Part shown: positions 13,714-18,502 of the stretch, in pieces
Position numbering within the stretch: position 1 is the first letter of the stretch
How the letters are laid out: each line of letters begins with the position of its first letter
Assembly: GCA_024278985.1 (NCBI GenBank)
Contig: JAJRSC010000020.1
Span: 1-36,327 of the forward strand
DNA from: an archaeon
GTDB lineage: Archaea; AGJL01; Methanococci; Methanococcales; Methanocaldococcaceae
DNA length: 36,327 nucleotides
Direction: 5' to 3'
Notes under the pieces: generated by a model
The model's database searches: none
Seen by the model: the letters and a program-made list of their open reading frames with translations, nothing else
What the model was told of the DNA's origin: nothing
Translations under genes and position numbers: made by a program

Positions 13714-14472
13714 TTATTCATTTTTATTTTTTTTCTCTTTATTAGATTCCAACTCTTTTTTTGCCTTATCAACTAACTCTAAAATCTTTTTAATATCTAC
13801 TTTCTTAAACTGTTGAGTTTTAGTATCTATAATACATGCATCAATATTTTCTGCTTTAATTTCTTCATTTGCTTTAACTAATGATTTTATAGCAAGATAT
13901 AATGCATCATCTAAAGTAAGGTTATCATTATACTCTTTTTCTAAAAGTTCCATAACTACTGGCCTACCACTACCTATTGCAGTTGCCTTATATTCTATCA
14001 ATGCTCCACTTGGGTCAGTTTCAAATAATCTTGAAGTATTTTTATCTAATCCAGCAATTAATAAAGAGACACCAAAAGGTCTAACTCCTCCATGTTGTGT
14101 ATATGCCTGTTTAATATCACAGATTTTTTTAGCTAACAACTCTATAGGTATCTCTTCTCCGTATGATAATCTATATATTTGTGCTTCTAATCTTGCTCTA
14201 TCAATTAATACTCTTGCATCAGCAACAAGTCCAGAAGTTGCTGCAGCAACATGGTCATCTATTTGGAAAATTTTTTCTATTGACTCTATTTTTACCAATC
14301 TACTTGTAACTCTTCTATCAACTGCCAAGACTACTCCTTCTTTACATGTTATACCTACTGCAGTTGTACCTCTTCTAACAGCTTCTCTTGCATATTCAAC
14401 TTGATATAATCTACCTTCAGGACTAAATACAGTTATTGCTCTATCATAAGCTGTTGGAGGAACCATTTGCAT
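13714..14472 (-). CDS. psmA: 20S proteasome alpha subunit
   Basis: 252 aa. Forms the outer rings of the archaeal proteasome, gating entry to the beta rings. The alpha signature [20 protein letters not shown] (residues 9-28) is complete, followed by the Ntn-hydrolase fold with [20 protein letters not shown]. There is no propeptide and no active Thr, as expected for alpha. The acidic-basic C-terminus ([14 protein letters not shown]) is usual in this group. Start ATG 14472 with GGTGAT (14476-14481). Single gene with its own promoter; RNA exosome or SBDS genes often found beside it are not here. Confidence 0.97.
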
Positions 14473-15317: not shown

Positions 15318-16481
15318 TTATTCTTTAATCATATCAACAGCTTTTAATCCAATTTCAGCAACATCTTTTGGTAATCCAACATATCCAGGAGCTAAGTATT
15401 CTGGTTTTTGACCTTCTGTTAAAATCCATTTTAAGAAGTCTTTAATAGCTTTAGCTTTTTCTGGAGTATAGTGCTTACCATTTTTATTTTCCCAAACTAA
15501 CAAGTGGGTAAATGCAACAATTGGATAGGAATCTTTTCCTGGAGCATCTAACATTTGTTTTAAATCTTCTTTATATCCTTCTGTTGGGTCTGGAATATTT
15601 GCTTTAACAGCTGAAACAGCTGCCTTTATACTTTTATCATTAGGAACTACATAGTTTCCTTCTTTATTTTCTAAAGCAGCAACTGGTAATTTATCATTAA
15701 TAGCATAAGATAATTCTGTATAGGCAATTGAATATGGAGTTGATTTTAATATTGCAACAACTCCTGTATTTCCTTTTCCAGCAAGCCCTCTTCCCATTTT
15801 GTCTACTGGCCAATTAACTAATTTTCCAGCTCCAACTTTTTCAGCCCATTCTTTGGATATTAAACTTAAGTATGTGGTAAATATTGCTGTTGTACCACTT
15901 GCATCACTTCTATGGATAACAATAATTTTTTTATGAGGTAATTTATCTGCAACATCTGGATTTAATTTTTTAATTCTTTCATCATCCCAGTACTCTATCT
16001 TTCCTAAGAATATATCTGCTAAGACATCTCTACTTAATTTTAAAGTTTTATCTCCTAATTCTGGAACATTGTAAGTTACAACAACAGCACCAACAATTTC
16101 AGGGAATTGTAATGGTTGGTCTCCTGTAGCTAAGAATTTTTTCCACATACTTTCTTTTACAGGTGGGTCAGTTCTTCCAATATCAGTTAATCCTTTTAAG
16201 AATGCTTCTTGTCCGTGTCCTGAACCTCCACCTTCATATTCTATCTTAACATTAGGGTTTATTTTTTGATACTCTTCAATCCATTTTTGAATTTGATATT
16301 TTGGAAATGTAGCTCCTGTAGTTCTAATAACTATAACTTTACTTTGTTCTTGACCTTGAGTTTGAGGTTGATTTACTTCAGAATTTTGACTTTGAGACTG
16401 GCTACCACCAACACATCCAGCTAAAGTTATTATCGGAACAATCATAACTAGGGCCAACACAATTGCAAGAATTTTTTTCAT
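15318..16481 (-). CDS. pstS: Phosphate ABC transporter substrate-binding lipoprotein PstS
   Basis: 387 aa. Signal peptide with lipobox-like LAGC (20-23), then a Ser/Gln-rich spacer (27-48), then a periplasmic-type binding fold: RTTGATFPKYQIQKW, GGGSGHGQEAFLKGLTDIGR and HRSDASGTTAIFTTYLS are the phosphate-contacting segments of PstS. It captures phosphate outside the membrane for an ABC importer. The PstCAB/PhoU genes are not beside it, so the transporter is split or the gene is an extra copy. GGTGATTTA precedes the ATG. It shares a promoter motif with the alkaline phosphatase. Confidence 0.93.
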   Translation of the reverse strand: MKKILAIVLALVMIVPIITLAGCVGGSQSQSQNSEVNQPQTQGQEQSKVIVIRTTGATFPKYQIQKWIEEYQKINPNVKIEYEGGGSGHGQEAFLKGLTDIGRTDPPVKESMWKKFLATGDQPLQFPEIVGAVVVTYNVPELGDKTLKLSRDVLADIFLGKIEYWDDERIKKLNPDVADKLPHKKIIVIHRSDASGTTAIFTTYLSLISKEWAEKVGAGKLVNWPVDKMGRGLAGKGNTGVVAILKSTPYSIAYTELSYAINDKLPVAALENKEGNYVVPNDKSIKAAVSAVKANIPDPTEGYKEDLKQMLDAPGKDSYPIVAFTHLLVWENKNGKHYTPEKAKAIKDFLKWILTEGQKPEYLAPGYVGLPKDVAEIGLKAVDMIKE

Positions 16482-16661: not shown

Positions 16662-16871
16662 ATGAAAATATTAGCTAAAAGAGGACAAATTAGTATGGAG
16701 TTTGCCATTTTGTTAGCAGCAGTTGTTGCAGCAGTTTCACTATTAGGATTTTACTATTTAAAATCAATAACTACAACAGCAAAAACTACTCAAGAAACAC
16801 AAACAAATACATCTTTAATTGTCCAAAATAAATATTTAGAAATATCTGAAAAAGCAAAAGAGGTTACTTAA
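16662..16871 (+). CDS. Class III signal peptide (type IV pilin-like) protein
   Basis: 69 aa. MKILAKRGQISMEF is a class III signal peptide: basic residues, Gly8 before the cut, Gln9 at +1, Glu13 at +5, followed by a hydrophobic helix (14-35). Prepilin peptidase (EppA type in Methanococcales) would remove residues 1-8. The mature part is only 61 residues, rich in Thr/Gln/Lys, smaller than most structural pilins, so it may be a minor pilin or an adaptor. GAGGT upstream. It is 3 bases before the archaeosortase-like gene, implying joint function. Confidence 0.85.
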   Translation: MKILAKRGQISMEFAILLAAVVAAVSLLGFYYLKSITTTAKTTQETQTNTSLIVQNKYLEISEKAKEVT

Positions 16872-16874
16872 TAA

Positions 16875-17336
16875 ATGAGATTAGATGAAAAAAAATATTT
16901 AATTAACTTTATTATCCTCTTTTTTATAATTTATTTAATATTAAAAGTCTTTGAAAATTATATTTCCATAATTATATCAAAAATTGTCTCTTTTTTATTA
17001 AACATCTCTTATAAAGGTAGTATATTATACTACAATAGTACAATATTTTATATTTCATCTGCATGTACTTGTACATTTGAGATATCTTTATTTTTAGCTT
17101 ATATCTTTGCTACACCAAAAGTTAATTTAAAATTTAAAATCATCTATTCAATATTTGGTTTAGGTCTTATAAATCTTGCAAATATTATAAGAATAATTTT
17201 GATTATAAAGTATAGCCAGATATTTAACTATTGGTTTGTTCATGATACTATAAGTTTTATAATATTTGTTGTTGCTATATTTCTTAATCTTGGTTGGGTT
17301 ATAACTTTAAAAAAGTTAGGAGTAGTAAAGGGATAA
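16875..17336 (+). CDS. Archaeosortase/exosortase-family membrane protein
   Basis: 153 aa, with about five membrane helices. The family's catalytic triad is visible: Cys64 in SACTCTF (Cys66 is a second candidate), Arg106 in NLANIIRIIL and His123 in WFVHDTIS. Such enzymes are transpeptidase-like and cut C-terminal sorting tags of surface proteins, transferring them to a lipid or glycan anchor. The protein is short, close to the minimal core. Its neighbour is an N-terminally processed pilin-like protein with no visible C-terminal tag, so the substrate is not obvious. ATG directly after a double stop of the pilin gene. Confidence 0.8.
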   Translation: MRLDEKKYLINFIILFFIIYLILKVFENYISIIISKIVSFLLNISYKGSILYYNSTIFYISSACTCTFEISLFLAYIFATPKVNLKFKIIYSIFGLGLINLANIIRIILIIKYSQIFNYWFVHDTISFIIFVVAIFLNLGWVITLKKLGVVKG

Positions 17337-17338
17337 AT

Positions 17339-18502
17339 ATGATTATTGAAAAAGAAAAAAAATATCATTTACAGGTTTATAAAAGATATCCTGTTGTATT
17401 TGTTAAGGGTAAAGGAGTTAAATTGTATAATATAAATAATAAGGAATATATTGATTTCTTGGCGGGGATAGGGGTAGTTAATGCAGGACACTGTAATGAA
17501 AAAATTAATGAAGCAATAAAAAATCAGTTAGATAAATTAATTCATGTGTCTAATTTATTCTACACCATTCCACAAATAGATTTAGCTGAAAAGTTAGTTA
17601 ATTTAAGTGGTTTAGATAAAGCATTTTTTTGTAATTCAGGGACTGAGGCAAATGAAGGAGCTATAAAATTTATTAGAAAATATGGTAAAAAAAATAACAA
17701 AGAGAAAATCATAAGTTTTTATAATGCATTCCATGGAAGAACTTATGGTTCATTATCAGCAACTCCAAAAAAAAGTATTAGAGAAGGTTTTGAGCCATTT
17801 CTTCAAAATTTTGAGTTTCTACCGTATAACGATGTAGAGGCAGTTAAAAATCTTGATAATAATGTGGCTGGAGTTATTGTTGAAGTTATCCAGGGAGAGG
17901 GAGGAGTTAATGTTGCAACTGAGGAATTTATTAAAACATTAAGAGATATATGTGAAGATAAAAATATTTTATTAGCTATAGATGAAGTTCAAACAGGAAT
18001 TGGTAGAACAGGCAAATTTTTTGGATTTGAGCATTATAATATTGAGCCAGACATTATTACATTGGCTAAAGCATTGGGTAATGGACTACCAATAGGAGCA
18101 ATACTTTTAAAGGAAGAGATAGAGAAGTATATTAATTATGGAGACCATGGAACAACTTTTGGGGGGAATCCCTTAGTTTGCTCAGCTGCTTTGTCAACTA
18201 TAGAGGTAATTAGTGAAATTATAAAAAATAACAAGGTTATAGATAAGGGTAAATACTTTATAAAAAAATTAAATACTTTAAACTATGATTTTATAAAAGA
18301 TATTAGAGGAAAAGGATTAATGATAGGTATTGAGTTGAATTTTGAAGGTAATGGGATAGTTAATGAAATGCTAAAGAGAGGTTTTATTATTAACTGTACT
18401 GCTGAGAAAGTTTTAAGATTTTTACCTCCATTAATAATTGAAAAAGAAGAAATTAATAAACTGGTTAATAATCTAAATGAGGTATTTGAGGGTTTAAAAT
18501 GA
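17339..18502 (+). CDS. argD: Acetylornithine aminotransferase ArgD
   Basis: 387 aa from ATG 17339 (AAGGGATAAAT before it); an upstream start at 17294 would overlap the archaeosortase gene. Class III PLP aminotransferase of arginine synthesis, possibly also serving lysine synthesis. Motifs: GIGVVNAGHCN, FFCNSGTEANEGAIKFIRK, FHGRTYGSLSAT, DEVQTGIGRTGKFFGFEHY and the PLP lysine in TLAKALGNGLPIGA. It follows the pilin/archaeosortase pair by 2 bases and overlaps the translin gene by 4, so it is expressed in one transcript with unrelated functions. Confidence 0.93.
   Translation: MIIEKEKKYHLQVYKRYPVVFVKGKGVKLYNINNKEYIDFLAGIGVVNAGHCNEKINEAIKNQLDKLIHVSNLFYTIPQIDLAEKLVNLSGLDKAFFCNSGTEANEGAIKFIRKYGKKNNKEKIISFYNAFHGRTYGSLSATPKKSIREGFEPFLQNFEFLPYNDVEAVKNLDNNVAGVIVEVIQGEGGVNVATEEFIKTLRDICEDKNILLAIDEVQTGIGRTGKFFGFEHYNIEPDIITLAKALGNGLPIGAILLKEEIEKYINYGDHGTTFGGNPLVCSAALSTIEVISEIIKNNKVIDKGKYFIKKLNTLNYDFIKDIRGKGLMIGIELNFEGNGIVNEMLKRGFIINCTAEKVLRFLPPLIIEKEEINKLVNNLNEVFEGLK

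Follow-up and report, generated by a model that had tools for sequence, protein, structure and literature searches.

Archaeosortases are usually treated as general enzymes of surface-protein anchoring. Archaeosortase A (ArtA), which serves the PGF-CTERM system of Haloferax volcanii, takes part in S-layer glycoprotein processing and lipid anchoring, and we know of no dedicated pilin partner for it. Archaeosortase D (ArtD; TIGR04175) belongs to the same enzyme superfamily and goes with the same kind of C-terminal tag, PIP-CTERM (TIGR04173). A third family, TIGR04205 (classIII_w_PIP), is annotated in NCBIfam as a class III signal peptide protein, “archaeosortase D/PIP-CTERM system-associated”. 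ArtD, PIP-CTERM and the pilin are thus already known as associated families, and the pairing described below is catalogued in NCBIfam, since both of its proteins match families named for the system.

A further member of the superfamily, archaeosortase E (ArtE; TIGR04124), has been linked to natural transformation. Deletion of artE abolished transformation in Methanococcus maripaludis, like loss of the epd pilus genes, and a transformation-defect screen recovered insertions in five of the six genes MMJJ_08190-08240 (PMC10133366). The epd locus specifies a clade 1 archaeal type IV pilus; judged from gene order, MMJJ_08190-08240 would be the M. maripaludis version of the Methanococcus-type locus considered here. 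No paper connecting ArtD to epd was found, nor any in searches for PIP-CTERM or for archaeosortase together with pilin and PKD; the literature search is incomplete, and the founding archaeosortase paper may discuss some of these points. To our knowledge, what is added here is the exact 1:1:1 count of enzyme, target and pilin across the order, the place of this module inside an epd pilus locus, an operon that has become dispersed, and a signature at the helix end of the partner pilin.

The pilin and ArtD of the window

The window, a stretch of 36,327 nucleotides, is an entire contig (C22) of a genome that is 86% complete and whose nearest named relatives are Methanocaldococcus. It encodes, on the plus strand, a pilin-like class III signal peptide protein of 69 aa (16662-16871) and, after a spacer of 3 bases between stop and start, the 153-aa multi-spanning membrane protein ArtD (16875-17336). 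This arrangement had been read from the open reading frames in an earlier note, and family matches now bear it out. An acetylornithine/ornithine aminotransferase-like gene (argD-like; 17339-18502, plus strand) starts 2 bases past ArtD and, because so little separates the two, may share its transcript. Relatives carry other genes at that spot, which places the argD-like gene outside the ArtD system as far as gene order can tell. By the same token the divergent gene on the other side, for a PstS-like phosphate-binding lipoprotein (15318-16481, minus strand), is taken as a mere neighbour outside the system, as it does not adjoin ArtD in the relatives examined. Both flanking genes come from the open reading frame table and were named by reading their sequences.

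The short protein scores 67.5 bits against TIGR04205 (cut-off 65, E 7e-19) and 37.4 bits against the class III signal peptide family PF04021 (cut-off 23.7). Its signal peptide reads AKRG|QISMEF, which predicts cleavage by the prepilin peptidase EppA between Gly8 and Gln9 (RG|QISMEF, 16683-16688, plus strand), and it shows the conserved Glu at +5 (Glu13) and the hydrophobic helix of a class III prepilin. An EppA homologue is encoded elsewhere in the genome, on contig C17. When the window protein was aligned with 13 partners of other ArtD proteins, Gln9, Glu13, Ala15, Phe30, Tyr31, Tyr32 and Lys34 proved invariant; one partner (L023) carries a QIT variant. Four of these residues fall in a helix-end motif, Phe30-Tyr31-Tyr32-Leu33-Lys34 (16749-16763, plus strand), which sets Lys at the predicted membrane exit and whose F, Y, Y and K are kept in 14/14. 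Beyond the helix comes a short and hydrophilic C-terminus, which varies among the partners and lacks a motif, a helix or a basic tail. From these sequence features, the protein is most likely an EppA-processed pilin or docking subunit.

ArtD matches TIGR04175 over residues 5-152 of 153 with 174.1 bits (cut-off 125, E 2e-51). Its weak cross-match to the ArtE model TIGR04124 (51 bits, cut-off 95) excludes it from that family. An AlphaFold2 model (mean pLDDT 90.3) is helical, with helices at residues 3-25, 27-42, 67-78, 85-112, 119-127 and 129-147, as expected of a multi-spanning membrane protein. Solved structures, searched both by sequence and by fold, gave no usable match to ArtD. A contig search with the single ArtD sequence returned no matches, and one with the ArtD alignment returned three loci, two of them of Methanocaldococcus. 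The predicted catalytic residues Cys64 (17064-17066, the putative nucleophile), Arg106 (17190-17192) and His123 (17241-17243), all on the plus strand, stand where they had first been placed and do not vary across the 14 ArtD proteins aligned. The enzyme had also been called minimal, a description that does not hold: other ArtD proteins are 149-168 aa long, and its size is ordinary for the family.

A second cysteine beside the nucleophile, Cys66 (17070-17072, plus strand) of the sequence ACTC, had likewise seemed unusual. It is a feature of the ArtD clade, with CTC in 13/14 aligned proteins; the exception (L053) has Gly instead, which gives the canonical CSG. At nearly all ArtE loci where the motif was found it reads CTG, unlike the CTC of ArtD, with CTS as one variant. 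Cys66 is therefore a clade feature that is non-essential, and the idea that it is a special catalytic residue of the window was rejected.

One pilin and one tagged protein for each ArtD

Above-cut-off ArtD occurs in 15/61 genomes, 13 of them of the window's genus and two of a sister family in the same order, and in all 15 the pilin gene lies directly 5′ of ArtD. Chance association of the two genes was rejected on these 15/15 pairs. The pilin is as restricted as the enzyme: above-cut-off TIGR04205 proteins are confined to the same 15 of the 36 genomes of the phylum, with scores dropping from 67 to 46 bits across the gap. The PIP-CTERM model in turn finds exactly one protein in each ArtD genome, above cut-off in 13 and below it in G002 and the window's genome, while the 21 other Methanococcales genomes have neither a PIP-CTERM match nor an above-cut-off pilin. 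With 13 from one genus and two others from the order, these 15 genomes are close relatives and do not count as independent observations. The only genome of the window's genus that lacks ArtD (G004) is 81% complete in 270 contigs and is also missing the other genes of the operon; the absence may therefore reflect incompleteness of the assembly. From co-occurrence alone it does not follow that ArtD needs the pilin to be active. Both genes evolve with dN below dS in all genome pairs compared (for G007-G001, 0.105 vs 0.62 for the pilin and 0.066 vs 0.525 for ArtD), but the window's own copies could be set only against distant relatives, at which dS is near saturation, so that for them the functional case is built on intact frames and on residues that are conserved.

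The PIP-CTERM proteins of ArtD genomes are large (777-1045 aa), and PKD domains were found in both members scanned. In the 14 that were read, the C-terminal end consists of [VI]P[IV]P, a hydrophobic helix and, mostly, a basic tail. The member from the window's genome is encoded on another contig (G000:C3:7052-10105, minus strand) and ends in SVPVPLYIHILTIVITIISIRLIFKK. Its tag scores 23.6 bits (E 9e-5), below the PIP-CTERM cut-off of 30, so its recognition relies on the conserved motif SVPVPLYIHIL and on homology to above-cut-off members; it is 47% identical to the G007 protein over about 1050 columns. All three components of the ArtD/PIP-CTERM system are thus present, with both window proteins above their cut-offs and in the same order as in the other 14 genomes. 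The genome departs from the catalogued system in two points, the sub-threshold tag and a PKD gene that is not directly upstream. Further tagged proteins could be missing, because the genome is 86% complete. The contig with the PKD gene also carries a recurring repeat (L045:1489-3482) that looks like a CRISPR array; its two strands translate as KIRPLRYGN and FPYRNGLILT.

On this evidence from the tag, ArtD has an ordinary C-terminally tagged target, a predicted PKD surface protein. The earlier note had offered two readings of the pair, the pilin as a helper or an enzyme that handles N-terminally anchored pilins in place of C-terminal tags. The second is no longer needed to explain the pair, since a conventional tagged target exists, and the helper or partner branch survives. 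It had also reasoned that tagged targets elsewhere, joined to a lack of conservation of the pilin, would refute a dedicated pair; such a target does lie elsewhere, but no loss of pilin conservation was seen. In principle the pilin could itself be trimmed or modified by ArtD despite having no C-terminal tag, and the adjacency and order of the two genes, which never vary, would fit. We consider this very unlikely. Every ArtD genome has a conventional tagged target, which led us to reject the pilin as sole substrate; the class III site of the pilin points to EppA, of which the genome encodes a homologue; and its C-terminus offers nothing resembling a tag.

The epd pilus locus and its dispersal

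In other ArtD genomes the usual gene order is SVDF - PKD - pilin - ArtD - FTYEA - IGTAIL - QNAII, where SVDF, FTYEA, IGTAIL and QNAII are labels coined here from sequence motifs. The PKD gene lies directly 5′ of the pilin in 14/15 ArtD genomes, usually with overlapping stop and start. The four labelled genes are homologous to epd genes of Methanococcus-type genomes (SVDF, E 1e-32; FTYEA, 4e-17; IGTAIL, 7e-25; QNAII, 3e-12), so that in relatives of the window's genome the PKD-pilin-ArtD module is flanked by epd homologues. In G024 the PKD-pilin-ArtD triplet is part of an epd locus, with SVDF on one side, FTYEA on the other and EpdC nearby. In the representative, FTYEA and QNAII contain DUF2341, a domain that Makarova and co-workers placed in proposed pilus-tip adhesins of this archaeal pilus clade (PMC4858521). 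The likeness has its limits, as Methanococcus-type (g4) genomes are without ArtD and its pilin.

Unlike these loci, that of the window's genome is dispersed. All operon members are present but are spread over five contigs, none at a contig end. SVDF, recovered by a model match, is on C17 (61198-61590), which also carries homologues of EppA, EpdC and other epd genes; PKD is on C3, pilin-ArtD on C22, FTYEA and IGTAIL together on C2, and QNAII beside metE on C16. The QNAII protein (L109:10706-11749) has 347 aa vs about 500-540 in most relatives; both ends are kept and the middle, including part of DUF2341, is gone. Two of six ancestral adjacencies survive, pilin-ArtD and FTYEA-IGTAIL. Rearrangement has also occurred in G002, where PKD-pilin-ArtD is intact in an otherwise changed order, and in G010, where SVDF is found elsewhere.

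These rearrangements bear on one alternative, that pilin and ArtD are merely operon neighbours that serve the same pilus without touching one another. In most genomes the pair is embedded in a long pilus operon, and there adjacency calls for no direct link. In the window's genome, however, the two genes stayed adjacent although the operon lies on five contigs, G002 and G010 keep them together while other members moved, and the pilin family occurs only in ArtD genomes. Neighbourhood without contact appears unlikely, though likelier than the other alternatives considered here. As far as gene order can speak, the retained adjacency argues for a close connection of the pilin with ArtD; since FTYEA-IGTAIL also stayed together, it is by itself weak proof of direct contact. 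The coupling proposed from the window alone therefore holds up, in that the genes are adjacent in 15/15 ArtD genomes and together here despite the scattered operon.

About 2.2 kb from the pilin-ArtD pair, the window encodes a proteasome alpha subunit (13714-14472). In G024 and in Methanococcus-type genomes, too, a few kb separate the epd locus from the proteasome alpha gene. The proximity in the window is possibly a trace of an old location, or chance.

A proposed sortase module for a type IV pilus

Taken together, the ArtD/PIP-CTERM system of Methanocaldococcus-type archaea, which are heat-loving methanogens, probably serves an epd-type type IV pilus as a sortase module. In this model, the large PKD-repeat protein would be exported and then stay in the membrane through its C-terminal PIP-CTERM helix. 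ArtD, acting through Cys64, Arg106 and His123, would cut it at [VI]P[IV]P on the outer face and hand it over to a new anchor. EppA, rather than ArtD, would cut the small class III protein at Gly8|Gln9; as a pilin or docking subunit, this protein may bring adhesin and ArtD together at the pilus.

The helix-end motif of the pilin raises a more specific version of this partnership. Gram-positive sortase-built pili provide a model in which the pilin is the acceptor, and ArtD could by analogy be a transpeptidase that, once the PKD adhesin has been cleaved at the PIP motif, links its C-terminus covalently to the pilin. The site of attachment might be the invariant Lys34, which becomes Lys26 after pilin maturation and would lie just outside the membrane. 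The strict 1:1:1 relation, with one target and one pilin for each enzyme, would suit such a reaction, as would the persistence of the pilin beside ArtD when the operon broke up. The motif F-Y-Y-x-K at the membrane exit is also distinctive: the helix-end Lys occurs in 14/14 ArtD partners vs 8/25 other short class III pilins of the order, and the Phe in 14/14 vs 2/25 (Fisher p = 2e-5 and 8e-9, values computed without regard to relatedness, which should not be read literally). Nevertheless, Lys stands at the same place in pilins that have no ArtD partner, the invariance can be explained by shared ancestry, which such tests overlook by treating related sequences as independent, and for ArtA, the relative that has been studied, the known outcome is lipid anchoring. 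We regard transfer to the pilin as improbable on balance. If true, this would be an archaeal counterpart of sortase-built pili, with ArtD dedicated to one adhesin and one pilin.

The sortase-module reading ties a single enzyme, with a single target and a single pilin, to a type IV pilus locus. The Methanococcus counterpart of this locus is needed for DNA uptake, as is the sister enzyme ArtE. These ties make it testable whether archaeosortases build or decorate archaeal pili.

ArtE loci show a partly different arrangement. Among the ArtE loci scanned, none showed a class III pilin within 1.5 kb. Four ArtE-bearing Methanococcus-type epd loci (L110:11827-12357, L111:7108-7605, L112:11921-12451 and L115:11795-12301) have, between SVDF and FTYEA, a secreted protein of 165-176 aa whose C-terminus follows the pattern LP[IV]..-helix-basic. 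It is missing from that position in three genomes of the same genus without ArtE, and its tag-like end makes it a candidate ArtE target. No ArtE match was obtained in the window's genome. In G002, a relative with a small genome, the ArtE gene is broken by in-frame stops (one TGA and two TAA) in the ArtD-model match (G002:C1:603867-604312, L105).
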